Shown one piece after another: positions 588-27,755 of a stretch of 29,859 nucleotides of DNA. The stretch's first letter is position 1. Every line of letters begins with the position of its first letter. Made by a program: the position numbers and the translations under genes. Source of the DNA: a virus; the IMG/VR virus record IMGVR_UViG_3300018080_000456, positions 1 to 29,859 of that record; one strand, written 5' to 3'. The notes beneath the pieces are model-generated. The model was not told the origin of the DNA and searched no databases. It saw only the letters and a list, made by a program, of their open reading frames with translations.

Positions 588-3128
588 ATGGCTGACAGGT
601 ACCTCTACGGTTCGATTTCTAGTCCTTCTGCCGGGGAGTTGACACGGGTCCGTCTCGCTGAGTCGGATCGTGCGCTCCTCGGCGGTTTGGTACGAGGTTC
701 TGCTTCCGTCGATCTCGGTTCAGGAGGCGCGGTCGAGCTAACGGGGGTCGCTACTTCCAAGTTCCTCGTCGACAACTCCGGTTCGAACCTTGAGCTTGGG
801 GTTGCGGGCGGCGGTGCTCAGAAGGTCGAAATCTTCTCAGAGGGGACAGGCGCTGATTCGATCAAGCTCGGTACTTCAGCCGGTATCGATGTTGGTTCGG
901 GCCTGACCACTTCTTTCAGTTACAACAATACCGAGGGCGCGGGTGAGCTTCTGGTGAAGCGCAACAACGTGACCCTCTTGACCTTCAACCAGAGCGGTGG
1001 CGTCACTTTCGACCTTCCGCTCAGCCAAGACTTCGACGTGACCGTCTCGAACGGCGGTGCCATGAACTTCAACTCGGGTTCCGGCACCATCTTGTTGGCG
1101 TCTGCGAGTGGTACAGTGGATATCGATGCCGGGGCCAATTTCGATGTCGACGTCGATGGCTGGATCGGTTTGGATACTTCAGGCACCGGTACCATACTAC
1201 TTCGCACCGTAGACGGTCTAGTTAAGCTACACGCGGGAACCGATGCCTCTTCTGTTGCAAATGTGGAACTGGATGCGGGGGGTTCCATTCTACTAGACTA
1301 TCGGGCTAATGATACTGGTACCGAGGAATTCACGGTTAGTAGGAACGGTACGGGTGTTCTCACTTGCAGCTCTACGGGGTCGGTAGCTGCGTACCCTGTC
1401 TCGGGCCAAGATCTTATTCTTAATCCTTCTGGGGGTGGTGATTGCGATATTCAAATCGGAGTGGGTGGAGGAGCTTTTAAGATCTCTGGTAGCGATGCTT
1501 TTGCGCTCGTTACGCTGGGGGGTTCTACGACGTGGAACTACGGGGGCAGTTCCGGTTCGTTTTCCTTGCAGCGGGCGAGCGGTAATATCTTCGCGATCAC
1601 CACAGCAGGGCAGGTGGACATCACACCTGTCAGTGGTCAAGACCTGAACCAGACCACGGCAGGTGCGGGTAGCATCACTCTCACTTCCGGAGATGATTTT
1701 TCTGTTGATGCAAACGACGACCTCACGCTGACCTATGATAGCGGGGACTCTACTGGAGATTTTTCTGTTGTTCGGAACTCCAATACGATTCTGAGCGGGG
1801 ACCACGCAGGGACTCTCAAGATTCAGAGACGCATCGTCTTCCCCAGAGACGGTACGGAACTGGCGACGTACTTGAACTCGACGAGCAACTATACGGTCAT
1901 CCTTGATCCGTCATTCACCTACTCGTTGACCCATACTAGCGTCCTTCAGGTTCGAGGGAACACGAGGGTCATGGGTTCGACCCGCTTCGGTTCGACAGCT
2001 ACGGTAACGATCAGCCTGGACACCAACAACGCCAACAACTACTTGGAGGTCACTGATCAGGTGATCTTCGAGAACGTTCGGTTTGCTTCGTCTGCGTGGG
2101 ACAGCACCACTTCTTCTCCTCCCTACGCCATCAAGTTCTCGTCAGGGGCGCAAGGGAGCATGGTGTCGAACTGCACGTTTGCTGCCAATCTTCGGGTGAA
2201 TCCTGCTGCTACGGATTGCTGTCTGCTCTTCTTGGACGACGTCGAAGACCTCACCATAGCGAACAACAAGGGCATCCAGTGCTCGGCCAACTGGTTCGTT
2301 CGAGGGGACCACACGGTGGGCCGGTGCTCGAACATCGACATCCTCAACAACCAAGTCGACAGCTACCCGACGAACAACAGCTCGGCGGGTGCAGGTATTT
2401 TCATCCCGCAGGACTCCTACCGTTGGTTGATCACGGGTAACTACCTGAGAGCCGATACCGGAGGGGACGTGGACGATGGCTGTTGCGTCTACATCGAGTC
2501 CGACTCAGGGCTCGACTGTGGGCGTCACCTCATAGAGGGGAACCATCTCGAAAGGGTCTCGAACTCAGGGGTGAACACCGCTCCGCTCGTCTACGTGGGT
2601 CAGCCCGACGTGACCATCAATGGAAACTACCTACATGGCCGTAGGATCGGTTTCGAGACCACGGGGACGCCTACAGAGGGCTTGGTCGAAGTCTACGCAC
2701 CTCGTTGTGGGATTGTGGGGAACGAGTTCGCTCTGTACAACACTTCTCGCGTTGGCGTACTCGTGTACTACATCGACGCGAACAGCGATGAACTCAAGGG
2801 TACCGTTGTCAACAGCAACCGCTTCACCGGTATCCACGGAACCGCGACTTCTGACGGACACGGCATCTACCTCCTTGAGAGTGGTGCCGACCCGGCGACC
2901 TACGCTATCGGGGGGAGCGCCAACGGCAATTTCTTCGATGGTGACGACAAGAGGTACTGCCACGGCCTAACGGCTGAGACGGGAACAAATGGTAAGCCCG
3001 AACTGTGGTCGGTAGTCGGGAACTCCATGTACCAAGACTCGGGATCGAATGACGGTATGTCCGAGACCGCCACGTCTTCCCAGTGGGGTACTTCTTCGGT
3101 GGTAGCCAACAACGCCACTCAGTCATGA
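588..3128 (+). CDS. Tail fibre / appendage protein with beta-helix region
   Basis: 846 residues. The ATG at 588 follows GAGGAG at a good distance. Residues 1-400 are a series of short beta-strand repeats (GSGTILLAS, GTGTILLRT, GSILLDY, GAGSITLTSGDDF) of the kind seen in intertwined trimeric fibre shafts. From about residue 420 (RDGTELATYLNS) the protein changes to a ladder of Asn-rich turns (ISNN/ILNNQ/ITGNY/IEGNH/INGNY/VVNSN spaced about 25-40 residues), typical of right-handed parallel beta-helix (pectate-lyase-like) domains of phage receptor-binding or polysaccharide-degrading proteins. The last 80 residues look like a separate cap. No catalytic residues can be assigned by eye, so depolymerase activity is only possible. 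Finding it upstream of the portal is unusual, as fibres generally follow the baseplate genes; a capsid fibre is an alternative. Confidence 0.7.
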   Translation: MADRYLYGSISSPSAGELTRVRLAESDRALLGGLVRGSASVDLGSGGAVELTGVATSKFLVDNSGSNLELGVAGGGAQKVEIFSEGTGADSIKLGTSAGIDVGSGLTTSFSYNNTEGAGELLVKRNNVTLLTFNQSGGVTFDLPLSQDFDVTVSNGGAMNFNSGSGTILLASASGTVDIDAGANFDVDVDGWIGLDTSGTGTILLRTVDGLVKLHAGTDASSVANVELDAGGSILLDYRANDTGTEEFTVSRNGTGVLTCSSTGSVAAYPVSGQDLILNPSGGGDCDIQIGVGGGAFKISGSDAFALVTLGGSTTWNYGGSSGSFSLQRASGNIFAITTAGQVDITPVSGQDLNQTTAGAGSITLTSGDDFSVDANDDLTLTYDSGDSTGDFSVVRNSNTILSGDHAGTLKIQRRIVFPRDGTELATYLNSTSNYTVILDPSFTYSLTHTSVLQVRGNTRVMGSTRFGSTATVTISLDTNNANNYLEVTDQVIFENVRFASSAWDSTTSSPPYAIKFSSGAQGSMVSNCTFAANLRVNPAATDCCLLFLDDVEDLTIANNKGIQCSANWFVRGDHTVGRCSNIDILNNQVDSYPTNNSSAGAGIFIPQDSYRWLITGNYLRADTGGDVDDGCCVYIESDSGLDCGRHLIEGNHLERVSNSGVNTAPLVYVGQPDVTINGNYLHGRRIGFETTGTPTEGLVEVYAPRCGIVGNEFALYNTSRVGVLVYYIDANSDELKGTVVNSNRFTGIHGTATSDGHGIYLLESGADPATYAIGGSANGNFFDGDDKRYCHGLTAETGTNGKPELWSVVGNSMYQDSGSNDGMSETATSSQWGTSSVVANNATQS

Positions 3129-3194: not shown

Positions 3195-3551
3195 ATGTCT
3201 GACAAGAAGAAGCCCGACCTCACCCCTGTCGAAGACAAGCCCAACGACGAGAATCCCACCACTGAGGAGCCGGTCTCTCCTCGTAGGGCCGTCGTGAAGC
3301 TCAACCGCGCCCATCGTGCGGAGGTTCGGTTGGCGTACATGACCATCACTGAGGCCGAGACTCGGTTCCGCTCGGCCCAGGATGCCATGCGTACGGCGCA
3401 GACCAACGTCATGAGCGCGAGGGACGACTCGGTGAAGGTCCAGCAGCAGATCCTGCGGGAGCTGAACCTGTCGCCTGACAACCAAGTCGACGTGGAGCGC
3501 CTCGTGGTCGTACCTCCGCAGGGAGAGAGCTACGTGAAGGAAAATGGCTAA
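3195..3551 (+). CDS. Small charged protein with helical core, unknown
   Basis: 118 residues; ATG at 3195 after AAGGAGAACGCC. The N-terminal 30 residues are disordered-looking and rich in Lys, Pro, Asp and Glu; residues 40-95 (VKLNRAHRAEVRLAYMT onward) form a predicted amphipathic helix or coiled coil with heptad-like Ala/Leu/Val spacing. The C-terminus overlaps the portal start by 8 bp (ATGGCTAA), so the two are probably translationally coupled. I do not recognise a family. Its place directly before the portal suggests a head-assembly helper or minor structural protein, but that rests on position alone. Confidence 0.7.
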   Translation: MSDKKKPDLTPVEDKPNDENPTTEEPVSPRRAVVKLNRAHRAEVRLAYMTITEAETRFRSAQDAMRTAQTNVMSARDDSVKVQQQILRELNLSPDNQVDVERLVVVPPQGESYVKENG

Positions 3552-6500
3552 TTTCGTTCCGACCCGTCGTGGGGAAGTCTTCAAGCCCCGCATCGTCTCT
3601 TCAGACCCCTCTTACGGTCGCAGGGAGCTAGCGGCGAGCGTTCTACCCAAGAACGCCACGCTGGCCCCCTCTGCGGGCCGTCGGGAGGCCGCAGGCTTCT
3701 TCGGTGGCAACATGCCGATGGGGGTATCTCCGTACCCGTCCGGGGGTGGTGGGAGCGCCATGTACCACATGCAGCGCCCCTACATGCCTGGAGTCGAATC
3801 TCCTGACCGAGTCCAGTACCCGAAGACTCGTCAGGAGGCCAACAGAGCCTGGCGACTGTTTCACGAAACGGACCCCATCTTCGGGACTGCCGTGGACATG
3901 TATGCCGAGATGCTGGTCAGCGATTTTGACATTTCTGTCGGGGACGAGAAGAGCCGAGAGATCCGGGACACGCTGGAGTACATGTGCCAGGTCTCGCATC
4001 TCATGGATCGGTTACGATATATAATCAAAGAGTACTTGGTCATGGGGGAGGCGATCCCTCACTGCTTCTTTGATGACAGCCTCGGTATCTGGACCTACAT
4101 CGCCATGCACAACCCGGACTACATCGACGTTGTCGATGCTCCGGTGGTCAACATGGACCCGATCATCAACTTCGTGCCTGACGAGGAGCTTCGGCGCATG
4201 CTCGCGGACGGATCTCCCGAGGCCAGGGAGTTCCGGTCGAGGTTGCCGGCGGAGTTCGTGTCCAAGATCATGGCACGGCAGAAGATCCGTCTGTCTCCGT
4301 TGAACACCACGTTCATCGCCAGGAAGCTTCATCCCTACCAGGTACGGGGGACTTCTTTGGCGAGCAGGATGTGGCGGATCTTCATGGTCGAGGACGCGGT
4401 GTACAACTCGACCATCGCCACGTATCGGCGTCATGCGGCGCCGGTCAAGGTGCTCAAGCTCGGTGATCCCGCCACGGGGTGGATTCCCGCTCCAGGGGCG
4501 GAGTCGAAGCTCTTGGAGATGCTCAATAGGGCCGAGGTCGATCCTCAGTGTTTCGTCCCCGAGACGCTTGTTACCCTCGGGGACGGTTCTCAGCGCCCCA
4601 TCGGAGACTTGGACATCGGGGACGAGTTGCTCGACAAGGACGGCGCTCCTTGTAGCGTGCTTGCTCTGGAGCGTGAAGGTACTGATCAGCTTGTTGAGAT
4701 CGATGTGGTGGGGTCTCCTTCTATTCGGTGTACCCCGAATCACAAGTGGCCTGTGTGGGGAGGGCCACGGACGTGTTCATGCGGTTGTGGAGAAGTCATC
4801 ACGGGAGGGAACTTCTCCCCCGGTCATGGTACGCATCCCGGAGGTTACCGCTACCAGGAAATGCCTGCGGATGCCCCCAAGAAGACGCAGACGGGGAAGG
4901 TCCGTTTTTTGGAGGGCTTTGACCCCTACCAGAAGCTTCTATCGACCCAGTTGCGCCCTGGGGACTACTTGATGATCCCTCGCCGGTTTGAGGAGAATCG
5001 TCCCGAGAACGTGACGCGCGAAAAGGCGCGTCTGCTCGGGTACTACGTCGCGGAGGGGAATACTGTTGGGGTCTACGAGCGGGAGGACGGCAGTGTCCGG
5101 AAAGGCTTTGAGCTTTCCTTCGGTGCGGACGAAAAGGACACCTTGGTACGGGATGCTTGCTCCATTGTGGAGGCTCTGTGCGATTACCGTCCGGAGGTCT
5201 TCTATGGAGACCGTTCCAACTGCCAGGTGCGTGCTCGCAGGAACGCGAGCATTGATCTTGCTGAATGGCTCGAACTCCACGGAGGTTCTGGGGCTCGGAC
5301 GAAGAGGCTTTCCGGGGAGGTCATGTCGTGGCCGCTTGATCTCAAGTACGAGTTCCTGAAGGGGTACATCGGAGGAGATGGGAGCAGTATTCGGAAGAAG
5401 CCGGGCAGTTCCGGTCGCTATGTTGAGGTTTCGTCTAGCTCTCGCAACCTGATTAATCAGGTGAAGCTGATACTCGCTCAGTGGGGGACGTACGGCAATT
5501 TCAGTGAACGAGAGCAGTCAGAAGAGACTTTCGGTCCTGGTAATGCGCAATATCGCTTGCACGTATACGGTCAGGCTGCTGCGGACCTTTCTCGTGATAT
5601 CTGGGGTTTCGAGTTGCAGGACGTGGAGGGCCGTACTCCACGTCAGTGGTGGACCGACAACGACTACCTGTATGTGAAGGTTCGTGGCGTGAAGGTCGTG
5701 GAATGCGAGGAGCCGCAGACCGTGGTCAACATGACGGTCAGCGGAGATCACTCTTACCTCACTGATTGTATTGGAACCCGGAATAGCTGGCTGATCTACC
5801 ACTACGGCATCAACTTCGAGGCCTGGGGTACGAACGACCGCGCGGTCACCATCAACAAGGAGCACGACGTAATCGAGAAGGTCAAGCTCCTCGCGCTGGG
5901 CCTCTCGAAGTCCTTCATGACGGGGGAGGTCACCTATGCCTGCTCTGTCGACGGAACTTCTGTGCGTCTTAGTGACGGTTCATATAGCGAGATCCAGGAT
6001 ATACAGCGCGGGGACGTCGTCGTGGATCGGTTTGGACATCCCCGTGGAGTTACGGATGTCCTGAAGTACCCGTCTCCCGACGAGATGGTGAAGCTCACGC
6101 TCTACGGTGATCGAGAGCTGACTCTTACGGATAACCACAAGCTCCCTGTTTTCACTCGACCGCATGAGTGTCTCTGTGGGTGCGGAGAGGATCTTGGGGA
6201 CGCTAAGGCGACCAGTGGAGGTCGCCGGAAGTGGCGTTCTTTCTCACCTCAGCACCACAAACTCTCGATGCGCGGTGGTCGCGACCGAGAGTGGGTCGAC
6301 TACATGCACGGAGATAGGGTCATCGCTTCTTTCCCCGCTGAGCACGAGCCTTTCCAGCGCTTGCGCGCGGATGAGGTTCGGGTGGGGGACTGGTTGATGA
6401 TTCCGCGTGGGTTCGAGGAGTGCGGGGTAGAGGCAACTCCGGGGAATCTAGCCAGGGCGAGATTGCTGGGGTACTACACGGCGGAAGGCTCTACGGATTT

Positions 6501-7938
6501 CACCGCGTCTGACTCAGGTAACAAGGTAACGCGGTTCTCGTTCGGGCGTGTCGACTGCGCCAAGGAGAGCTTCTACGTTGCCGATGTCGCAGAAATCTTG
6601 GAGTCGCTCGGGCATCTTTGTACGATCCAGAGAAACCTGAAGCATCCTGAATCGGAAGCCCCATCCTACACGGTCTACGTCCCGACAGCCGCTACCGGGA
6701 TGAGCAACTATTTGGAGAGCCGAGCTGGGAAAGGTAGCGACTCTAAGAACTTCTCGTCGGAAGTGATGGGTTGGGGTCTGGAGCTGAAGCGGGAACTCTT
6801 GAAGGGGATGTATCGCGGGGACGGTTATCTCTTCAAGCAAGGTAACCGCCTCGATGTTGTGTACACGACGACCTCGACGCAGCTGATGCGGCAGCTCGAA
6901 GTGATCCTCACCCAGTTGGGCTACTCTTGCTACGTGCACACTTCTCCGGAGCGTGAGGACGAGAAGGGCTACGTTCACAAGGAGTGCCATTACATCACCT
7001 GTGCGGGAAAGCAGGCTCGCTCTCTTGCGGAACTCATCTGGTCGGACGTTCCCGATGTGTGGGCCGGTATCGACCGGGAGGGGTTCGACCGCGACGACTG
7101 CCAGGGTGAGCGTCACGAAGTCTTCGTGGACGATGAGTTCGTTTACCTTCCGGTGAAGTCGGTAGAGGTTGTTAGGGTCGATCAAGAGGCTCACCCCTAC
7201 GTGTACAGTCTCACGGTGGAGGAGACCAGCAGCTACACGCTCGACAACATCGCTTCGTTCAACTCCGCCAAGTCCGGTCTCCAGGTTTTCCTACGTAGGT
7301 TGCTGTCTCTGCGGCAGTTCCTGGAGAACATGTGGCTCTACCCCAAGTACTTCCGGCCGATCTCCGAGATCAACGAGTGGACCACCTCTTCTCCGAGTGA
7401 GGTCAACCACAAGTACCGAATCAAGCGCACAGCTCAGGAGATCCAGGAGCAAAACCTGGTTCTGATGCCGACGGTCAAGTGGAAGAACAAGCTCGACCCC
7501 AGCGTGGACCAAGATCTGCTCAACGCGTACAAGATGCTTGAGCAAGGCTTCGGGATCAAGCTGTCCAAGTCCACGGTGACGTCGGCTGTCGGCGTAGACT
7601 GGCAGGACGAGCTGGACAAGAGCCTGCGCGAGTTCAAGAGCGCCGAGGAGATGAAGAAGCAGACCCTGGGCAAGGCTGACCTCCAGAAGTACGAGCAGCA
7701 GGGTGGTCCGCAGGGTGCGCAACCTCCGGGGACTCCTGGTGCAGGTGCGAAGCCTCCAGCAGCCGCAGGTAAGCCTCCAGGGGGCGCAGCCCCTGCCGGA
7801 GGTGCTGGGGGTGGTCTTCTGGCTCCTGGTGGCATGAACGACGCTTCACAGCCTCCTGGTAGCGCTGAGGGCGGCGGAGTTCTCCAGGAGACCATCGAGT
7901 CGCCTTCCGGTGGCGGATTGCCGACCGGTGTCGGTTAG
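3544..7938 (+). CDS. Portal protein precursor, interrupted by two inteins
   Basis: The reading frame encodes 1464 residues, but residues 336-747 and 800-1240 are inteins. The joined exteins (335 + 52 + 224) give a 611-residue portal, a normal size for the dodecameric vertex ring through which DNA is packaged and ejected. Extein sequence such as ANRAWRLFHETDPIFGTAVD, YHYGINFEAW, the junction VTYA/SAKSG and LPTVKWKNKL-like helical segments, followed by a long Pro/Gly/Ala-rich tail (about residues 1380-1464), fit portal proteins of large myoviruses. Both inteins sit in the most conserved parts of the extein, with Ser as the +1 residue (S748, S1241). The start ATG overlaps the preceding gene by 8 bp. 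It is followed by a MuF-like gene, the usual portal neighbour. Splicing itself is inferred. Confidence 0.85.
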   Translation: MANFVPTRRGEVFKPRIVSSDPSYGRRELAASVLPKNATLAPSAGRREAAGFFGGNMPMGVSPYPSGGGGSAMYHMQRPYMPGVESPDRVQYPKTRQEANRAWRLFHETDPIFGTAVDMYAEMLVSDFDISVGDEKSREIRDTLEYMCQVSHLMDRLRYIIKEYLVMGEAIPHCFFDDSLGIWTYIAMHNPDYIDVVDAPVVNMDPIINFVPDEELRRMLADGSPEAREFRSRLPAEFVSKIMARQKIRLSPLNTTFIARKLHPYQVRGTSLASRMWRIFMVEDAVYNSTIATYRRHAAPVKVLKLGDPATGWIPAPGAESKLLEMLNRAEVDPQCFVPETLVTLGDGSQRPIGDLDIGDELLDKDGAPCSVLALEREGTDQLVEIDVVGSPSIRCTPNHKWPVWGGPRTCSCGCGEVITGGNFSPGHGTHPGGYRYQEMPADAPKKTQTGKVRFLEGFDPYQKLLSTQLRPGDYLMIPRRFEENRPENVTREKARLLGYYVAEGNTVGVYEREDGSVRKGFELSFGADEKDTLVRDACSIVEALCDYRPEVFYGDRSNCQVRARRNASIDLAEWLELHGGSGARTKRLSGEVMSWPLDLKYEFLKGYIGGDGSSIRKKPGSSGRYVEVSSSSRNLINQVKLILAQWGTYGNFSEREQSEETFGPGNAQYRLHVYGQAAADLSRDIWGFELQDVEGRTPRQWWTDNDYLYVKVRGVKVVECEEPQTVVNMTVSGDHSYLTDCIGTRNSWLIYHYGINFEAWGTNDRAVTINKEHDVIEKVKLLALGLSKSFMTGEVTYACSVDGTSVRLSDGSYSEIQDIQRGDVVVDRFGHPRGVTDVLKYPSPDEMVKLTLYGDRELTLTDNHKLPVFTRPHECLCGCGEDLGDAKATSGGRRKWRSFSPQHHKLSMRGGRDREWVDYMHGDRVIASFPAEHEPFQRLRADEVRVGDWLMIPRGFEECGVEATPGNLARARLLGYYTAEGSTDFTASDSGNKVTRFSFGRVDCAKESFYVADVAEILESLGHLCTIQRNLKHPESEAPSYTVYVPTAATGMSNYLESRAGKGSDSKNFSSEVMGWGLELKRELLKGMYRGDGYLFKQGNRLDVVYTTTSTQLMRQLEVILTQLGYSCYVHTSPEREDEKGYVHKECHYITCAGKQARSLAELIWSDVPDVWAGIDREGFDRDDCQGERHEVFVDDEFVYLPVKSVEVVRVDQEAHPYVYSLTVEETSSYTLDNIASFNSAKSGLQVFLRRLLSLRQFLENMWLYPKYFRPISEINEWTTSSPSEVNHKYRIKRTAQEIQEQNLVLMPTVKWKNKLDPSVDQDLLNAYKMLEQGFGIKLSKSTVTSAVGVDWQDELDKSLREFKSAEEMKKQTLGKADLQKYEQQGGPQGAQPPGTPGAGAKPPAAAGKPPGGAAPAGGAGGGLLAPGGMNDASQPPGSAEGGGVLQETIESPSGGGLPTGVG
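4549..5784 (+). other. Intein 1 in portal gene (412 aa, LAGLIDADG type)
   Basis: Residues 336-747 of the precursor. It begins with Cys (CFVPETLVTLGDGS, block A) and has block B as TPNH (His400). Two LAGLIDADG (DOD) homing-endonuclease motifs are visible: LLGYYVAEG at 497-505, with the acidic residue E504, and FLKGYIGGDG at 604-613, with D612. Block F is VVNMTVSGDHSYLTDC and the C-terminus is GTRN followed by Ser. The penultimate residue is Arg instead of the usual His. Just after block B there is a CSCGCGE motif (C411, C413, C415) with FSPGHGTH about 10 residues later, a possible small metal site. This is a class 1 intein, and both endonuclease acids are retained, so it may still be mobile. 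Confidence 0.9.
5941..7263 (+). other. Intein 2 in portal gene (441 aa, LAGLIDADG type)
   Basis: Residues 800-1240 of the precursor. It starts with Cys (CSVDGTSVRLSDGSYSEI) and has block B as TDNH (His865). The DOD motifs are LLGYYTAEG at 974-982 (E981) and LLKGMYRGDG at 1085-1094 (D1093). The C-terminal region is VYSLTVEETSSYTLDNIASFN followed, after the Asn, by Ser. It therefore lacks both the usual penultimate His (Phe1239 here) and the His of block F. A CLCGCGE motif (C876, C878, C880) with a following FSPQHHK matches the same insertion in intein 1, and the two share motif order and wording (GYYxAEG, EHEPFQRL/DPYQKL, GDWLMIPRGFEE/GDYLMIPRRFEE), so they are probably related by descent. Splicing efficiency is uncertain given the missing His residues. 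Confidence 0.88.
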
Positions 7939-9004
7939 GTCTCGTACCAGAGTCGAGGCGGAGGAGATCTTCAACGGGTGGCCCGAGGAAGACCCCATTC
8001 TGGCTTACGACGACTTCTTCATCGGGGGTTCTACCGGGGATGAGCTGCCGGGGTACAACACCGAGTGTTTCTCTGATCAGCTGACCGGTATCGTTACGGT
8101 CCAGGATCTGAAGAACCCTCCCTCGACGGAAGCTCTGGTAGAGGCGGTTGACGACTTCGATCAGTTCGTGGTCGATCAGGTGAACCTCCTTCACGAGGAC
8201 CGTTACGGGGAGCTGTTCTTCGCCGTTAAACGGGACGCGTTTCGGCTGTTTGGTTTCTCCGCTATCAGGTCCGGGGCGGCCGGTGATGTCCCTCTCCAAG
8301 AGGTGGACTTGGTCTTGGACGAGAACGACTACTACATACTGGAATACTTGAAGACCACTACCTCTGACTACTTCAAGGTTGCCCAGGTGGCTCTTCTCGT
8401 GGCGTACGACAACATGGGGGTAGACACGGTTCGCTTCTGTCAGAAAGACGGTTGCCCCCTGTGTGTGGCCCACGAGGGGCTCTTCTATCGCGTGAACAGC
8501 CTGATGGACCGTTTGTGCTCGGGTGGCAACGTTCCCCATCCTTACTGCGAGTCCACATGGGCTCCTGTGATCGACCGGTCGAGCTACTACGGTCCCTTGC
8601 TTGGACATCTGAATGTGGAGCGGTTGGAGCACGGCGGTGTGGAGCTGCTGAACGTTCCTGCCGAGTACGTGGAGGAGATCAAGTTGATCGCGGAGAAGCT
8701 CGACTTCGAGCGTATCCGCTTTGTGAACATGGTTGACTACTCACTGAACGACTCTTCGTACCAAGGGGACCTGGACGGGGTGGTTGTTCTCGTGGAGGAG
8801 GATACCTTGGTGGTTCACAACGGGTACGTTGGGATCAACGGTCCTGTGGAGTTTCTCCGGGAGTTCTCAAGGCCGGTGGTCAACCTCTCGAAGATCTCTC
8901 TTGATGACGTCAGGGACCCCACGGTGTACTATGTAGGCGGACGTTCCGCAGTACGTCACGAGGGTAAATTCTGGGACGCTAGCACGGGAGAGCGTCTCGC
9001 GTAG
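7910..9004 (+). CDS. MuF-like minor head / head morphogenesis protein
   Basis: Up to 364 residues from a GTG at 7910; a second in-frame GTG at 7928 is equally possible, since neither has a clear Shine-Dalgarno. It overlaps the portal end and is likely coupled to it. Near residues 177-220 is CQKDGCPLC-(x)n-PHPYCESTWAPV, which matches the end of the Phage Mu gpF-type domain (two cysteines, a short loop, then HPxC(R/E) and a hydrophobic strand). The MuF protein lies next to the portal in very many phages and is a minor capsid or ejected protein needed for head morphogenesis. After about residue 240 there is an extra, mostly beta C-terminal domain with no recognised family. The assignment combines motif and position; sequence similarity was not tested. 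Confidence 0.6.
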   Translation: MADCRPVSVRSRTRVEAEEIFNGWPEEDPILAYDDFFIGGSTGDELPGYNTECFSDQLTGIVTVQDLKNPPSTEALVEAVDDFDQFVVDQVNLLHEDRYGELFFAVKRDAFRLFGFSAIRSGAAGDVPLQEVDLVLDENDYYILEYLKTTTSDYFKVAQVALLVAYDNMGVDTVRFCQKDGCPLCVAHEGLFYRVNSLMDRLCSGGNVPHPYCESTWAPVIDRSSYYGPLLGHLNVERLEHGGVELLNVPAEYVEEIKLIAEKLDFERIRFVNMVDYSLNDSSYQGDLDGVVVLVEEDTLVVHNGYVGINGPVEFLREFSRPVVNLSKISLDDVRDPTVYYVGGRSAVRHEGKFWDASTGERLA

Positions 9005-9495: not shown

Positions 9496-9501
9496 CTTTG
9501 G

Positions 9502-9537
9502 ATGAACGACGCTTTCGTTGTTTTGAAAAGATCATGA
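9502..9537 (+). CDS. Candidate 11-codon leader peptide
   Basis: ATG at 9502 lies about where transcription from the TATAAT at 9490-9495 should begin, so this ORF would be leaderless or nearly so. It encodes MNDAFVVLKRS and its TGA overlaps the protease ATG at 9534 as ATGA. The protease start itself has only a poor AAAAG as ribosome site, so reinitiation after this peptide is an attractive way to translate it. Purely inferred from geometry; the peptide could be chance. Confidence 0.35.
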   Translation: MNDAFVVLKRS

Positions 9538-10451
9538 GCTTCAAGAAAACAGCTGCGGCGCAAGTTCTGGGCGTTCAGCCTCTGGGCGGGGCGTGGAATA
9601 AGGTTGCTTCGGGCAAGTTCTCCTCCGTCTACATGGACGACGGGTACGGTCTCAACTTCGAGGCCATCCTGGACACGGTTGCGGACACTTTCAAGATTTC
9701 TCGCGACCCGCGTGACTACTTGCTCATACCGTGCAGGGCTTGTAGCGCGGATCGTCCGAACGAGAACATGGATGCGTTCCGGAGAGAGGAACTTCTTCGG
9801 TTCGATCCCCCTATCGGCCGCCGCGTCTACTCCACCTTCCAGCTGAAACCCCACTTCGTCAACCACAACGCCAGCAACTACGCACTGTCGCGCGGAGTCC
9901 TCATCGACTCGCACTTCAACGATCAGAACGCTGCCACGGACGCGGTCAAGACGGCAGTCTTCGAGGCCACCGGCAAGGATGTGGTCAACGATGAGTTTGT
10001 CGAAGTTCTGATCGCTGCCGACATGACCAAGGACCCGCATCTCGCGGAGGCCTACAAGGGTGGCGCTGTTGATCGTTTCAGCATGGGTTGCGACGTCGAG
10101 AACACCGAGTGCTCGGTGTGCGGTAAGGTAGCCTCGACGACTCTCCAGTTCTGCGATCACGTCCGGGGTAAGCATTCCCGGATCGCGTATCCCGTCGATG
10201 GCGGCGGTGAACGTCGCGCCTTCGAGTGGTGCGGGGGTACTATCTTCGCGGAGCTGAGCGCGGTTGACGATCCCGCTGATAAATCTGCTGAGATCCAGGA
10301 GGGTATCCTTCGGGTGGCTGCCACGGACCCGCAGGCTCATTCCTTGACAGAAGATCAGGTGCGTGAGATCACCACCTACGTTGCGAAGAACGCCAGTAAG
10401 ATCCCGGAGTCCCTGGCTGGGCTGATTAACTCAGCTTTGGCGGGACGTTAG
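9534..10451 (+). CDS. Prohead maturation protease
   Basis: 305 residues from ATG 9534 (a TTG at 9498 in the same frame is less likely, because it would lie at or before the predicted transcription start). The region YLLIPCRACSADRPNENMDAF, then STFQLKPHFVNHNASN with His111, then FVEVLIAADM and VDRFSMGC with Ser183 follows the order of phage head maturation proteases, with the His and Ser as likely catalytic residues by analogy with the HK97/U35 type. After the Ser there is a CSVCG...CDH metal-binding-like segment (C193, C196, C207, H209), often present in proteases of large myoviruses. It would cleave scaffold and capsid termini inside the prohead. It lies directly before the scaffold and capsid genes, which supports the call. 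Confidence 0.72.
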   Translation: MSFKKTAAAQVLGVQPLGGAWNKVASGKFSSVYMDDGYGLNFEAILDTVADTFKISRDPRDYLLIPCRACSADRPNENMDAFRREELLRFDPPIGRRVYSTFQLKPHFVNHNASNYALSRGVLIDSHFNDQNAATDAVKTAVFEATGKDVVNDEFVEVLIAADMTKDPHLAEAYKGGAVDRFSMGCDVENTECSVCGKVASTTLQFCDHVRGKHSRIAYPVDGGGERRAFEWCGGTIFAELSAVDDPADKSAEIQEGILRVAATDPQAHSLTEDQVREITTYVAKNASKIPESLAGLINSALAGR

Positions 10452-13255: not shown

Positions 13256-14518
13256 ATGTCCAATCCGTTCAAGAGCATCAGCAAGAATCGTCGCCCCGGC
13301 CCCTCGCGGTCCGCGCAGAGGAATGGCGACCAGACCCGGCGACAGCGCGCTCCCCGTCGCGAGGCTTCCGAGCAGCCGCGTGACCGCATGGCCGTACGTC
13401 CGGGCCGCTTCGCCAACAAGCGCGACGAGGGCCTCTTCGAGGGCAACGGCACGTTCAACCCGCAGCGGTACGACCTTCCGTCGAGCCGTCGCGCCACCGC
13501 CAGCAGCACCGACCGTCGCATGTTCGACGGCAGGGGTGAGATCAACGCGCACGACAAGCGCGAGGCGATGACGCAGATCCATCAGCTGATGAACGAGGTC
13601 ACGAAGAAGAACGCTCAGGCGCTCTCCTTCTACCGTCCCGACACGGAGACCTCGATCAGCAAGGAAGCTCGGCGCGACATTCTCGCCGCCGCGCTCACCG
13701 ACCCGACCGGACAGGGCTTCCACATCGTCGGTCAGGAGCTGGCGCTCCCGATCAAGGCGATCCTCGACTACGAGGGCTTCGCGCGGAAGATCTACCGGGT
13801 TCGGAAGCTGGCCCAGGCCGAGCTGTTCCGTATCCCGCTGGACATCCGTTCGACGGCGTGGGTCATCGGCCAGGACGGTCAGTCCCCCGAGAGCCGCATC
13901 AAGACGAAGTGGATCACCCCGCCCGAGTGGAAGGTGACGAGCTTCCCGGCCATCGACATCATGGACATCTACCAGATGAACTTCGATGTCCTCGACCGGG
14001 CGCAGGACACCGCGCGTCAGGAGATCGAGCTTCAGGAGGACAAGGCTGCGATCAGCCTCATCGACGAGGCCGCGCAGACCGACAACGCCGTGACCACGTT
14101 CGCGACGTTGGGCATCGGCGCCTTCGAGGACGTCCGGTTCCAGGTCGAGCGCCATCGTCTGATGGTCGAGAACTTCCTGATCTCGCGGTCCGAGCTGAGC
14201 GACATCGTCAAGACCATGTCGACCAGCGTGGACCCGGTGACGGAGCGCGAGCTGATCCTCGCGGGTTACATCGGCAACGTCCTGAACGCCCAGATTCTGA
14301 CCGCCGCAGGCACGGGGGTTGAAGAGGTGATCGAGCCCGGAAGCTTCTATGCCACGACGGGCGCGGATTACATGGGCGAGATGGGTGTCAGGATCGAGCT
14401 GTTCTCCGAGCCGTACAACAAGTACAGCCACCAGGAGACGGTCAAGGGCTGGGCCTTCATCGAGATGGTCGGGTTCGCGATTGCCAACGCTCGCTCCTGC
14501 GCCAAGGGCCAGAAGTAG
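13256..14518 (+). CDS. Major capsid protein (HK97 fold)
   Basis: 420 residues; AGGAAGGAGGCTGACG precedes ATG 13256. The basic first 75 residues (many Arg/Pro/Ser) are probably a delta-domain or protease-removed arm. The body has the HK97-like order: long helix with EARRDILAAALTDPTG, then LALPIKAILDYEGFARKIYR, strands with WVIGQDGQSPESRIKTKWIT, the spine helix QEIELQEDKAAISLIDEAAQ, and a C-terminal EPYNKYSHQETVKGWAFIEM-(VG)-FAIANARS, a signature of large-phage capsids. It forms the icosahedral shell. It follows protease and scaffold genes, the classical order, and has the most GC-biased third positions in the window. A long antisense open frame here is a by-product of that bias. Confidence 0.85.
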   Translation: MSNPFKSISKNRRPGPSRSAQRNGDQTRRQRAPRREASEQPRDRMAVRPGRFANKRDEGLFEGNGTFNPQRYDLPSSRRATASSTDRRMFDGRGEINAHDKREAMTQIHQLMNEVTKKNAQALSFYRPDTETSISKEARRDILAAALTDPTGQGFHIVGQELALPIKAILDYEGFARKIYRVRKLAQAELFRIPLDIRSTAWVIGQDGQSPESRIKTKWITPPEWKVTSFPAIDIMDIYQMNFDVLDRAQDTARQEIELQEDKAAISLIDEAAQTDNAVTTFATLGIGAFEDVRFQVERHRLMVENFLISRSELSDIVKTMSTSVDPVTERELILAGYIGNVLNAQILTAAGTGVEEVIEPGSFYATTGADYMGEMGVRIELFSEPYNKYSHQETVKGWAFIEMVGFAIANARSCAKGQK

Positions 14519-14632: not shown

Positions 14633-15478
14633 ATGGTACGTACGACAGGTTCGCGGGTCCCGGTTTTGGACACGTCCGGGTCCGTCCTGTCGTACACCCA
14701 TCCCGCCAGGGCGAGAAAACTGGTCAAGAAGGGGAAGGCTGTCGTGGTGAAGCGAGAGCCTTTCATCATCAAACTGGCGAGAGATCCCAGGGAGGTTGTC
14801 ATGAACGGTCAAGGTAACAGGGTTCCGATCATCACCAACTTCACGGAGTACTTCCGTGAGGAGCGCGACGTCTACGTGCAGAACCGCAGTAACACTCAGG
14901 TGTCGCTCCAGTTCGAGCTTATCGTGGGTCGCACCGAGTCGATCCTCATCCCGAAGGGGAAGAAGCCGATCAACTTGACGCAGCTCGTTCCGTTCCACGC
15001 CATCAAGGCGTCCACGGACCTGCGCAAGATGGTCAACCGCCGTCCGCCGGTACTCGTCCTCATGGACGAGGGGGAGTACTTGGAGTACTACGAGAAGCTC
15101 GGTGCTCAGTACGGTATCTCGGCTGAGGAGGCCATCGACATGGCTCATCAGGAGCAGTCTGACCTCCAGAACCGACGCACTTTCACGAAGCCCTCTCCGG
15201 AGCCGCGCAAGACCATCGAGCAGATGGCCGAGGAGCGTGAGGCGGAGCCCATGGACCCCCAGGACAAGGTCACGGCGCGTGTAGTGGGCATCTGCAACAG
15301 CGTGGGGGACGACGTCGAGGAGAAGGACCGGATGAAGGCCGGGCCGATGTTGGACGAGTTGCGGGATCTCGACGAGGGGCAGCAGCTCACGCGGGGAGAT
15401 CTGGAGTACTTGCTCGGACACGGTTTCTACCCGTCGGTGAAGAAGTGGGCAGAGCGTGAGTTGGGTGCGCGCTTCTAG
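14633..15478 (+). CDS. RRXRR-domain protein fused to capsid-adjacent protein
   Basis: 281 residues from ATG 14633 (weak AAGGT before it). Residues 9-48 (VPVLDTSGSVLSY, then HPARARKLVKKGKAVVVKRE and PFIIKL) match the RRXRR / PLMP-type domain that starts IscB-like and HNH proteins. From residue 57 the sequence (MNGQGNRVPIITN...DVYVQNRS..., IPKGKKPINLTQLVPFHAIK, STDLRKMV) is an unrelated beta-rich domain followed by a helical charged C-terminus, resembling a small structural protein often found beside the capsid gene in large phages. The internal ATG at 14801 (codon 57) has an ideal AGGGAGG at 14789-14795 and could be the main start. So the RRXRR part may be an extra N-terminal module or an independently expressed remnant. 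No RuvC or HNH motifs follow. Confidence 0.6.
   Translation: MVRTTGSRVPVLDTSGSVLSYTHPARARKLVKKGKAVVVKREPFIIKLARDPREVVMNGQGNRVPIITNFTEYFREERDVYVQNRSNTQVSLQFELIVGRTESILIPKGKKPINLTQLVPFHAIKASTDLRKMVNRRPPVLVLMDEGEYLEYYEKLGAQYGISAEEAIDMAHQEQSDLQNRRTFTKPSPEPRKTIEQMAEEREAEPMDPQDKVTARVVGICNSVGDDVEEKDRMKAGPMLDELRDLDEGQQLTRGDLEYLLGHGFYPSVKKWAERELGARF
14801..15478 (+). CDS. Possible internal-start form of the capsid-adjacent protein
   Basis: The ATG at 14801 is preceded by AGGGAGGTTGTC, the best ribosome site in this area, whereas the longer frame's start at 14633 has only AAGGT. This form (225 residues) would lack the RRXRR domain and hold the DVYVQNRS/INLTQLV/DLRKMV beta-rich domain and the acidic helical tail only. 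It is annotated as an alternative product of the same gene, not as an independent gene. Which form dominates cannot be decided by sequence. Confidence 0.45.
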   Translation: MNGQGNRVPIITNFTEYFREERDVYVQNRSNTQVSLQFELIVGRTESILIPKGKKPINLTQLVPFHAIKASTDLRKMVNRRPPVLVLMDEGEYLEYYEKLGAQYGISAEEAIDMAHQEQSDLQNRRTFTKPSPEPRKTIEQMAEEREAEPMDPQDKVTARVVGICNSVGDDVEEKDRMKAGPMLDELRDLDEGQQLTRGDLEYLLGHGFYPSVKKWAERELGARF

Positions 15479-20874: not shown

Positions 20875-21591
20875 ATGTTCACTCGAAGCCTGATGAAGCG
20901 CGGTTTCTTGGAGGGTGCGGAAGTCCGCATGGCGTCTTTCATGGAGAAGCGCAAAGCCGCCCTTCCTCCGGAGTACCACCAGTACCTCTGGGATGCTGTG
21001 ATGTCCGACGATGTGAGCTACGTTGACCGGCTCATGGATGCCGGGGCTGACGTTGAGGAGATCTACGAGTTGGCGTACGAGCACAACGCAGAGAAGGTGC
21101 TTGGGTACCTGGACTCGATGATCAAGGTTGCGCTCCGTCGTCGTGCCGCTGAAGGTGATCGTCTCGACGGTGGTCTCGGGGACGATATGTACCCGAGCGA
21201 TTTCTGCCTGTGTCAGGTCTTCGAGGGTGTTCGCGTGGAGATGGAGCACACCGACGACCCCAAGCTCGCGCTGGAGATCGCCCTCGACCACCTGGTCGAG
21301 GACCCCAAGTACTACACTCATCTCAACGAGATGGAGGAGAAGTACGCGTCTACCGATCCTGTAGAGGACGCTGCGGCGTGGGCTCTACAGGACATGGCTG
21401 CTCGGGATCAGGGTCGGGGGCTGTCGATCCACATCGCAGCCAAGATGTTCGGGGTCGACACCTCCGAGGTGGCTCGGAGGGTTCGCGCGCTGGAGCAGCA
21501 GGAGTCCGACTGGCGGGATGCCATGGATACCCTGAGGGACGAGTACATGCGCCCGTACACGTATGATCCGGATATGGACGAGAGGGCCTAA
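20875..21591 (+). CDS. DUF5661-like protein
   Basis: 238 residues; AGGAGGACAG before ATG 20875, with the AGGAGG overlapping the preceding TAG. Around residues 115-155 is CLCQVFEGVRVEMEHTDDPK...EIALDHLVEDPKYYTHLNEM, which matches the conserved pattern of DUF5661 (VE-EHT-D-xx-A-EIA-DHL-E-P-YY-L-ME), found in many large-phage and plasmid proteins. The N-terminal part is an ankyrin-like or helical region (DRLMDAGADVEEIYELAYE). The C-terminus (AKMFGVDTSEVARRVRALEQ) is a possible helix-turn-helix followed by a coiled coil. Function unknown. Confidence 0.6.
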   Translation: MFTRSLMKRGFLEGAEVRMASFMEKRKAALPPEYHQYLWDAVMSDDVSYVDRLMDAGADVEEIYELAYEHNAEKVLGYLDSMIKVALRRRAAEGDRLDGGLGDDMYPSDFCLCQVFEGVRVEMEHTDDPKLALEIALDHLVEDPKYYTHLNEMEEKYASTDPVEDAAAWALQDMAARDQGRGLSIHIAAKMFGVDTSEVARRVRALEQQESDWRDAMDTLRDEYMRPYTYDPDMDERA

Positions 21592-22748
21592 TGGTTGATG
21601 ACTTCTCAGGGCCGCGCGAGTACCGACCCACGCAGCCGTTCGATCCTGACGATCCGCCCAGGTTTGGTCAGCTGATCGAGACGACCAAGGACGCCTTCGC
21701 GTCCGAGATTCGTCGTTTCTTCGATTACCGTTCGGATGACATCCGGGCTAAGATCGGAGAGTTCCCGGCCATCGAGAAGTTCGCTCACATGGGAACCAAC
21801 AACACCACGCAGTCCATGGAGACCGTGATGAACTTCATCATGAGCTTTGGGGACACTCCGGACAAGTTTCCGATGGTGGTGATTACGTCTGCCAACGCCA
21901 AAGAGAAGGCGTTGGGTCTTGGTGATGTTCACGCGGTGACGAATCAGACTCTTCCTCGCCTGACCGCTGAGAATGGGGGTCCTTACGACCTCTCACCGGG
22001 GTGGGAGCTTCATATCCGTACGTGGCCTCTCGGGCTGGACAACGATCCTGTGGATACTGTGATTCTGTTCGAGGACATCCTGTTCCCGGATATCCACAGC
22101 GCTACGGTGGACGATGTCATCCAAGCCATCAACGCCCAGGTCCTGTATACTCACGCGCAGAAGAACGGTACCGGACAGCTTCAGATCGTCAGCGGGGGAC
22201 CTGCCGCTCACGGAACTCCGAACGCTATGGAGGTCATCGGAGGTACCCCTGATTGCTTGTTGGCGTTGGGGTACAAGACCGGTCAGTACGTCACGTACCT
22301 CGACTACGAGGTCAACCCTCCGTATCGTAGGTATGCCGTGGCTGCCGATCTCACCATCAACATCGATGTGGTCGCGGACAGCTTGAACACCCGTACGGCT
22401 TTGGCCGATCTGGTGTACGATTTTTTCACTTTTTACATGTCACGTCAGTTCTTCCAGATGCTCGGGCGTTCATACGACGACCCCGAGTTGAGCCCTCCGG
22501 AGTGGTTCCAGATCATCTTGAAGAGAGAATTCACCTGGGCTGGCGAGTACAACGTACCCCGACAGGGCGGAGAGCAGCAGGCGTTTATCCACTCCATCCG
22601 GGGTAGCGTGCCTGTGGTGACGGCGGACTTCGTGGATCGGCCCTTCAACAGAGGCGAGTACACCTTTATCCGCGAGACGGATCTGGTGAGTACCGAGGAG
22701 CTGCCCCAAGGGGACTATTTCGGTGCCAATTACTTGAAGATAGGTTGA
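21591..22748 (+). CDS. Tail/neck virion protein upstream of sheath
   Basis: 385 residues; its ATG overlaps the previous stop as TAATG. The N-terminus is acidic and Pro-rich; residues 20-110 are mixed, containing MGTNNTTQSMETVMNFIMSF. Residues about 137-226 (VDTVILFEDILFPD, VDDVIQAINAQVLYTHAQK, LQIVSGG..., LLALGYKTG) contain a beta-alpha domain like the two domains inserted in the sheath. The last third (ADLVYDFFTFYMSRQFFQML..., PEWFQIILKREFTWAGEYNV) is typical of neck or tail-terminator proteins located before sheath genes. Ends TGA, 71 bp before the sheath. Confidence 0.55.
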   Translation: MVDDFSGPREYRPTQPFDPDDPPRFGQLIETTKDAFASEIRRFFDYRSDDIRAKIGEFPAIEKFAHMGTNNTTQSMETVMNFIMSFGDTPDKFPMVVITSANAKEKALGLGDVHAVTNQTLPRLTAENGGPYDLSPGWELHIRTWPLGLDNDPVDTVILFEDILFPDIHSATVDDVIQAINAQVLYTHAQKNGTGQLQIVSGGPAAHGTPNAMEVIGGTPDCLLALGYKTGQYVTYLDYEVNPPYRRYAVAADLTINIDVVADSLNTRTALADLVYDFFTFYMSRQFFQMLGRSYDDPELSPPEWFQIILKREFTWAGEYNVPRQGGEQQAFIHSIRGSVPVVTADFVDRPFNRGEYTFIRETDLVSTEELPQGDYFGANYLKIG

Positions 22749-27000: not shown

Positions 27001-27755
27001 CTTCTCGCCTTCGGATCAAGGCCAAGGTCTTGACGAAGCGACAGATCCCCATCGGGGACCCCCGTATCAAGGGGATGAACGATACCCAGTGGGTGTTTGA
27101 GCTTGAGGCGATGAACAAGGAGGACTTGGATCGGTACAAGGACATCGAGCTGATGGCGGACATAGTGAAAGACCAGGTGGTGAGCATGTTGGGCCTCAAC
27201 CTGTGTCCGGTGGAGGACGAGGAGACGGGGTTGCTTCGGATGCCTACTCCTGACGAGATCATGCCACTTTCTGTGATGACTGGGCGTGATGACGTCCTCT
27301 CGATGATCAAAGACCGTACCGAACAGCTCCATACCCAGCAGGAGGTGGCGGGTCAGCTCGCTGCATCGGGCCAGGTTGGTGACGACGGTCGCCCCGTCGA
27401 TACCGGTGTCGTGGAGATGACCCCCGACGAGCTGGAAGCCTTCATGGAGGACGACGGCGACGTCGAGTGCGACAGCACCCCTGAGGAGCTGCAACGGATG
27501 ATGTCCTGGGGTGGTCGGGACAACCAGGCCCTTCTGGAGTCTCTGGTTCTCAACAAAGACGACATCGAGGAAAACTCCCTGTCGGATGTCGCTGCGCGCA
27601 CTATCGGTCAAGCCCGGCATGACATGAAGCGCGAGCATTCTCAGCAGCACATTGTGGAGCACGTTGATTTGGTGTCGGTCCAAGTCACATCGGACAAGTC
27701 CGTGGAGGCAGAACCGAGCCTCGACAGGCCGACTGTGATCGTGGAGAGTGATTGA
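26464..27755 (+). CDS. Tail assembly chaperone, -1 frameshift product (gpGT-like)
   Basis: Frame-0 residues 1-155, then after slippage at A AAA AAA reading continues at 26928 in the -1 frame to the TGA at 27753-27755, about 430 residues in total. The -1 frame is open all the way from the slip site, including 100 bp upstream of the TTG at 27030 that is the first possible independent start (which has only a weak ribosome site). The added part begins after a basic stretch (GFGRGREAHWDRVFPVWRRI) and contains acidic, helical regions (IELMADIVKDQVVSMLGLNL, DDIEENSLSDVAARTIGQAR). In lambda the equivalent fused product binds tail tube and tape measure. Stop overlaps the tape measure ATG. Confidence 0.78.
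26922..26928 (+). promoter_or_regulatory. Slippery heptamer A_AAA_AAA (-1 frameshift site)
   Basis: Seven As in the exact codon phase GCA AAA AAA TCC (codons from 26920), the canonical X_XXY_YYZ. Downstream, GGAAGA (26946-26951) can pair with TCTTCC (26977-26982) with an inner GGGC-GAGAA-GCCC stem (26952-26964); an alternative tight CCTCC/GGAGG pair is adjacent at 26930-26941. The pairing could stimulate slipping. Confidence 0.8.

Follow-up and report, generated by a model that had tools for sequence, protein, structure and literature searches.

Inteins, genes with several of them, portal inteins, double terminase inteins and closely spaced inteins are already known. The closest studied neighbours of the case presented here are, going by the cited part of their description, inteins a-d of the haloarchaeal MCM gene, where a conserved gene holds several LAGLIDADG inteins at short distances and their single or double presence is patchy, as here (PMC10643990). 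Portal inteins have also been found in mycobacteriophages, for which the cited part of the report gives six in cluster C1, along with seven terminase-like sites (PMC5050341). Two inteins in one packaging gene, again as here, are described in the part cited for a crAss-like phage terminase (PMC7886860), and inteins only 48 or 85 residues apart in that cited for archaeal CDC21 and DNA polymerase (PMC8966425). The subject of this study is the portal gene of a virus known from a stretch of 29,859 bases, the entire IMG/VR record IMGVR_UViG_3300018080_000456 (hereafter the window), in which two putative inteins, I1 and I2, lie 52 residues apart. The portal protein forms the ring by which DNA passes into the capsid. 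In the open-licence literature no report was found of several inteins in one portal, nor of one intein lineage filling many portal-gene sites; subscription papers and the intein database lay outside the scope of this search.

The portal gene and its two inteins

The exteins of the open reading frame (ORF) 3544-7938 are those of a phage portal, both by sequence profile and by the fold modelled for its intein-free homologue L006. I1 comprises ORF residues 336-747 (CFVPE...GTRN/SWL), the middle extein residues 748-799 and I2 residues 800-1240 (CSVDG...ASFN/SAK). Together the inteins take up 853 of 1464 residues (58%), and the three exteins (335+52+224) add up to a predicted spliced portal of 611 residues. 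According to the part of PMC4031507 cited here, class 1 inteins begin with Cys or Ser, end in Asn and are followed by Cys, Ser or Thr at +1; I1 and I2 both show the class 1 end residues Cys1, C-terminal Asn and Ser+1. Each also contains paired LAGLIDADG homing endonuclease motifs with acidic residues. The initial annotation had described two complete inteins of 412 and 441 residues around a 52-residue extein, taking up more than half of the gene, each with Cys first, Ser at +1 and paired LAGLIDADG motifs. The recomputed lengths and junctions agree with it, the end residues were read directly from the ORF, and both motif pairs were located in the alignment. The third-position G+C content is 94% in the middle extein (5785-5940) versus 77% in the N-extein.

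The ORF matched the profiles LAGLIDADG_3 (E 1e-20, two stretches), Hom_end_hint (E 5e-11) and TIGR01445 (1.2e-7) over their cut-offs. An AlphaFold2 model of I2 (mean predicted local distance difference test score, pLDDT, 87.4) had PI-SceI, 1ef0, as its best PDB match (E 1.3e-18, template modelling score, TM-score, 0.52). This match to PI-SceI-type inteins suggests that I2 contains a splicing domain. The model of L006 is of modest confidence (mean pLDDT 67.7, predicted TM-score, pTM, 0.54); among solved portals its best match was 6qjt (Z 19.7, root mean square deviation 6.7, 345 aligned residues).

Features of the window, with the intein insertion points of the portal family in residue numbers of the intein-free homologue L006
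Feature	Position	Strand	Remarks
Portal gene with two inteins	3544..7938	+	1464 codons plus stop; phrog_16240, E 2e-66
N-extein	3544..4548	+	335 residues; 78% identity to L006, where contiguous with next extein
Intein I1 (site D)	4549..5784	+	412 residues; Cys1 ... Arg-Asn / Ser+1
I1 LAGLIDADG motif 1	5032..5058	+	LLGYYVAEG, I1 residues 162-170; alignment
I1 LAGLIDADG motif 2	5362..5382	+	GYIGGDG, I1 residues 272-278; alignment
Middle extein	5785..5940	+	52 residues; strand, helix and loop in L006 model
Intein I2 (site F)	5941..7263	+	441 residues; Cys1 ... Phe-Asn / Ser+1
I2 LAGLIDADG motif 1	6463..6489	+	LLGYYTAEG, I2 residues 175-183; alignments
I2 LAGLIDADG motif 2	6805..6825	+	GMYRGDG, I2 residues 289-295; alignments
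C-extein	7264..7935	+	224 residues; 74% identity to L006
Head maturation protease gene	9498..10451	+	phrog_18299, E 1.4e-32
Major head protein gene	13256..14518	+	phrog_2522, E 1.7e-58
Insertion point A	85/86		L006 numbering
Insertion point B	173/174		L006 numbering
Insertion point C1	284/285		L006 numbering
Insertion point C2	287/288		L006 numbering
Insertion point C3	289/290		L006 numbering
Insertion point G	298/299		L006 numbering
Insertion point D	335/336		L006 numbering; I1
Insertion point E	377/378		L006 numbering
Insertion point H	383/384		L006 numbering
Insertion point F'	386/387		L006 numbering
Insertion point F	387/388		L006 numbering; I2

Presence and absence in related portals

A first scan gave 11 loci, on each of which the five pieces (three exteins, two inteins) were mapped. 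Both inteins were found in L002 (192-kb contig) and L003 (129-kb contig), with a protein identity to the window of 99.8-100%, and L004 (6.4 kb), equally similar, has the same layout until its contig ends inside I2. I1 alone is present in L010, and in L005 as far as its contig end; it also occurs in the portals of L067 and L117. I2 without I1 is carried by L007 and L008, and by L011, which has another intein elsewhere in the gene. The portals of L006, L009, L012 and L013, the last being Virus Rctr197k of the phage collection, have neither intein and are contiguous at both junctions. I1 is thus absent from these four, L007 and L008; I2 is present in L002, L003, L007, L008 and L011 and absent from L010 and the same four.

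The two stretches therefore behave as in-frame inserts, since relatives lack one or both precisely at the junctions. The same layout in L002-L004, together with contiguous homologues at the exact junctions, shows that neither chance nor misassembly produced the arrangement. Homologous portals in which the stretches align as ordinary portal sequence had been named beforehand as grounds for dropping the claim, and the opposite was found. At the level of sequence, the observation of two inteins in this portal ORF is confirmed.

Insertion points in the portal family

Later portal scans gave 29, 50, 1 (a contig of an Actinomycetes metagenome-assembled genome, MAG) and 58 loci, with contigs often repeated. 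A set of 54 portals was kept, no pair being more than 90% identical. Fifty of these, including the window, came from portal-protein scans, L134 and L143 from an intein scan only, and L013 and L014 from the phage collection. The end-cut L005, L086 and L252 and the start-cut L010 were retained. Excluded were second copies of a contig or virus; the end-cut L087, L095, L110 and L115, whose readable part has no intein; and the phages L015-L017, which are distant and have no insert of intein size.

At least one intein was found in 15 of the 50 portals (14 of the first 40, one of the ten later ones) and two or three in six (all among the first 40). Three are present in each of two portals, again from the first 40, namely L069 (ORF of 1996 residues) and L117 (1623 residues). 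The view that double inteins are unusual in a portal, as first annotated, does not hold within this phage group. No tendency to co-occur is claimed: in the set without the ten later portals, six of the 37 complete ones had two or more inteins, where 3.5 would be expected (permutation p 0.05).

The 54 portals contain 26 inteins at eleven insertion points, which makes this portal family a hot spot for inteins; F' lies one codon off F and was seen in one portal, so that ten is the cautious count. The insertion points coincide with conserved positions (p 0.0016 for all eleven, 0.02 for seven representatives), with dense patches at portal residues 284-299 and 377-388 (L006 numbering). With a threshold picked post hoc, six of the ten gaps between sites measure at most 10 residues versus about 2.3 expected at random (p ~0.006; 0.014 with F' and F merged). 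Pairs 51-52 residues apart occur three times, in the window, in L067 (C1 and D) and in L117 (D and F).

In the L006 model, helix 277-298 has sites C1-C3 and G inside it or at its end, site D is flanked by helix 317-332 and strand 337-341, and the stretch from helix 359-372 to the opening residues of helix 386-423 holds sites E, H, F' and F. By portal anatomy we take these regions to be the stem helix, the clip, and the tunnel loop together with the first part of the wing helix; the strand of the middle extein presumably belongs to the clip, its helix to the stem and its loop to the tunnel loop. With the junctions in this predicted clip, stem and tunnel-loop region, an unspliced subunit would probably be unable to build a ring.

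Several inteins of the set deviate in detail. At site F of L117, a portal with two full inteins besides, a mini-intein of 210 residues (L117:6070-6699) has lost both LAGLIDADG motifs. Ser replaces Cys as first residue in L011:8673-9986, L068:3367-4503 and L069:5095-6192, all of the intein clan described below. The site F intein of the L143 portal (ORF 3840-7244) starts with Thr, unlike the others with their Cys or Ser, and a Cys follows two residues on. In the L134 portal (ORF 3637-8169), the C3 intein has Thr at +1 and a second Cys-rich stretch (CINCG...CSNC) after its CxCGCG cluster, and the other intein lies one codon off site F.

One intein clan in portal, terminase and head-protease genes

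The intein scan used a peptide pattern from an alignment mainly of portal inteins and returned 77 loci. High-scoring among the identified non-portal ORFs were the terminases L124, L125 and L129 and the head protease L127, a homologue of the head maturation protease of the window interrupted by an intein of the clan defined below; an intein-profile search of 37 records added L195, the fourth intein of a terminase. An intein-free portal is present in the genomes of L124, L127 and L109 and on the contig of L125. In the careful tree of 41 inteins, portal inteins, three terminase (TerL) inteins and one protease intein form one clade of 27 rows (support 100/99), here called the clan; L011_B is the sole portal intein of the tree outside it. 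Support was 100/100 after dropping two long rows, and with L195 and L256 added the clade had 29 rows and a support of 100 in the Shimodaira-Hasegawa-like approximate likelihood ratio test (SH-aLRT) in the quick tree. The trees do not include the mini-intein L117_F, whose ends match I2 with 48% and 57% identity by BLAST. The trees show the portal inteins placed in them, all but one, in one lineage with the terminase and head-protease inteins.

The clan also shares residues. A penultimate His was found in none of the 28 members with a readable end, nor in L256 (L005 is cut), and in 13 of 14 inteins outside the clan, the remaining one being cut by the match boundary. Both LAGLIDADG patterns are present in 27 of 29 members; L117_F misses both and L195 the first.

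In nine records (eight IMG/VR contigs and Rctr197k), all nine LAGLIDADG_3 matches, spread over six records, fell in portal ORFs; the lone non-portal match of TIGR01445, in a 469-residue frame of Rctr197k, was below the cut-off. On the 192-kb contig of the window's virus, the intein profile detected only the two portal inteins. The 37-record search gave weaker matches outside the clan members in G005, G009, G010, G019, G028 and G032. A more distant intein (131.6 bits) is present in a head-protease ORF of 1454 residues (L196:3011-7372) beside the L056 portal, and the ORFs L161 2184-6644 (1487 residues) and L167 2100-7136 (1679 residues) each have three lower-scoring intein-profile stretches.

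On balance we lean, if only slightly, towards a single intein lineage that radiated inside one phage gene, its endonuclease repeatedly re-targeting nearby conserved sites and sometimes the terminase or protease of the same head module. It is rather unlikely that incomplete sampling partly explains the single clan, in which case unseen close relatives would exist in unrelated genes and the portal would have been reached many times from there and not by movement within the head genes. Such sampling would follow from the intein scan, which consisted of one peptide pattern from a portal-intein alignment, so that relatives in other genes may be under-sampled, and from the bacterial genomes scanned with the intein profile, which covered one phylum only. 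However, the same scan yielded many distant inteins of other genes that were placed outside the clan, and I1 and I2 each matched one record, weakly, among 50,697 phages. A search for a host-genome origin in 296 genomes of that phylum, to which the L118 MAG belongs, was negative: eight matched at E 1e-20 or better, and the best score, the MAG's portal contig aside, was 105 bits, versus at least 306.8 bits for the best stretch of clan inteins in the 37-record search, except for the L117 mini-intein.

Proposed explanation and splicing residues

We consider it highly probable that the ORF encodes a portal precursor with two class 1 inteins, which belong to a homing lineage and reached the double state stepwise. 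Both would leave the precursor by self-splicing and the three exteins would be joined to the mature portal, the unspliced precursor probably being unable to enter the portal ring. Each LAGLIDADG endonuclease probably copies its intein into empty portal alleles of co-infecting relatives. As the trees show, the lineage of I1 and I2 has also reached terminase and head-protease genes, with repeated changes of site. The most likely starting point of the double state is a single-intein allele like that of L010 (I1) or of L007/L008 (I2).

The explanation is supported by the pattern of presence and absence at both junctions, the end residues and paired motifs, the fold and low substitution ratio of I2 and the intein trees. 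Several points weigh against it. The Intein_splicing profile matched the ORF with E 2.5e-8 and 34.3 bits, under its cut-off of 35.8, and TIGR01443 with 15.3 bits, under 15.6; in a six-frame scan of the window, the single Intein_splicing match had 13.4 bits, below the cut-off. I1 has no penultimate His and I2 neither this residue nor the block F His, and given these losses the splicing of both could be slow. The approximately unbiased (AU) tests were run after the tree was seen, and the Fisher tests on Ser at +1 ignore shared ancestry. The outcomes themselves favour the explanation: a portal-only intein clade was rejected (p-AU 0.0001), and at site D Ser follows in four of four readable occupied portals versus six of 39 empty ones, which mostly have Ala (p 0.0017). 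At site C1 it does so in three of three versus three of 41 (p 0.0015). Ser is frequent in empty portals at A, E and F, so that no such contrast exists there. The +1 nucleophile is either older than the intein or arrived with it.

The missing His residues could be read as a sign of degeneration that impairs splicing in one insert or both, most of all in I2. We regard this as very improbable, as the frame of I2 is open, near-identical copies exist in L002 and L003, and its lost His residues are likewise missing in L007, L011 and the L117 mini-intein. The ratio of non-synonymous to synonymous substitutions (dN/dS) of I2 between the window and L007 is low (0.07, with dS 2.3, near saturation); for I1 it was not estimable, synonymous sites being saturated. 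An unspliceable portal should also be lethal for the phage. According to the cited part of PMC4031507, such His residues are dispensable in some inteins, and about 5% of functional inteins have no penultimate His.

The position of the clan in portal, terminase and head-protease genes and its lost penultimate His would also fit inteins acting as an assembly checkpoint, in which metal- or redox-sensitive splicing times the activity of the three proteins. A Cys pattern, C-x-[CT]-G-C-[GD], is found in 22 of 29 clan inteins, and zinc reportedly inhibits DnaB splicing in mycobacteria (PMC7360933). Nevertheless, 35 of the 50 scanned portals are intein-free, hence no intein is required, and the Cys cluster also occurs in six of 14 inteins outside the clan, on which ground a clan-specific zinc finger was rejected. 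A checkpoint is scarcely to be expected.

Site fidelity and origin of the double state

At site D all five inteins, including I1, fall into a single clade (100/100 in the careful tree, 99 in the quick tree). Mapped on the portal tree, their distribution requires no fewer than five changes, that of the F-site inteins seven. Site F, that of I2, was colonised more than once, a single clade of F-site inteins being rejected (p-AU 0.0015). L143_F is sister to L129_TerL (100/100; 39.5% identical), and because both loci are on one contig, these are sister inteins in the portal and terminase of one virus, by their sequences an old move between two head genes. In the careful tree L089_F groups with two E-site inteins (95/88); the quick tree leaves its placement open. 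Horizontal transfer of the D intein is not claimed; the careful tree pairs L010_D with L067_D as sisters (100/87) although their portals are distant, but the quick tree is noncommittal.

It has to be weighed whether I1 and I2 are sister copies from an ancient duplication within the gene and not two separate acquisitions. They align over their full length with 29% identity (E 1e-45), and a clade of D-site and main F-site inteins was not rejected (p-AU 0.25), which leaves room for an ancient duplication behind them. On the other hand, neither tree groups I1 with I2, and each has site-specific relatives elsewhere, at 53-58% identity for I1 (L005, L010) and 54-76% for I2 (L011, L007), which makes the duplication an unlikely origin. 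Co-conversion beside I1 is likewise not claimed. The window and L010 use the same codon at 84% of 38 shared middle-extein residues versus 53% of 360 elsewhere, and their best sliding windows for codon sharing lie directly 3' of I1 (one of six pairs). The I1 copies of both are synonymous-saturated, which speaks against a recent event.

Genome context

An ORF downstream of the major head protein gene (14633-15478) is weakly HNH-like in its first 57 residues (phrog_2214, E 2.9e-5). The ORFs 588-3128, 7910-9004, 20875-21591, 21591-22748, 22820-25321 and 27752-29857 matched no PHROG family at the thresholds used.

Implications and comparison with known systems

It has long been asked how inteins gain insertion sites that are new to them. 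In these phages a single lineage occupies about ten points of the portal gene and has relatives in two further head genes, which allows a direct comparison of donor and target sites. If the proposed radiation is true, ectopic intein movement, generally thought to be very rare, is common here, and these phages form a natural series for endonuclease re-targeting. Two nearby homing endonucleases hinder each other, as stated in the cited part of PMC10643990; the neighbouring portal inteins would offer a phage test of this, with co-infection controllable given a cultured host. For annotation, such portals show as ORFs of about 1000-2000 residues and are easily mislabelled.

PI-SceI, the VMA1 intein (PDB 1ef0, 1vde), combines a splicing domain with a LAGLIDADG endonuclease like the I2 model, but belongs to another host gene and is only about 16% identical over the alignment (TM-score 0.52). 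In the part of the mycobacteriophage report cited, a double intein such as that of the window is not mentioned for a portal (PMC5050341). The crAss-like inteins differ in their gene, a terminase, and in their Hint-Hop type, and the cited part does not mention a radiation within the gene (PMC7886860). CDC21 and DNA polymerase are cellular genes, and the pair 48 residues apart consists of mini-inteins according to the part cited, unlike I1 and I2 (PMC8966425). The MCM inteins, by the cited part of their description, occupy four sites of an archaeal helicase, whereas the inteins studied here occupy eleven points of a phage portal and nearly all belong to one clan (PMC10643990). The parts of this system are ordinary; its evolutionary pattern is unusual.

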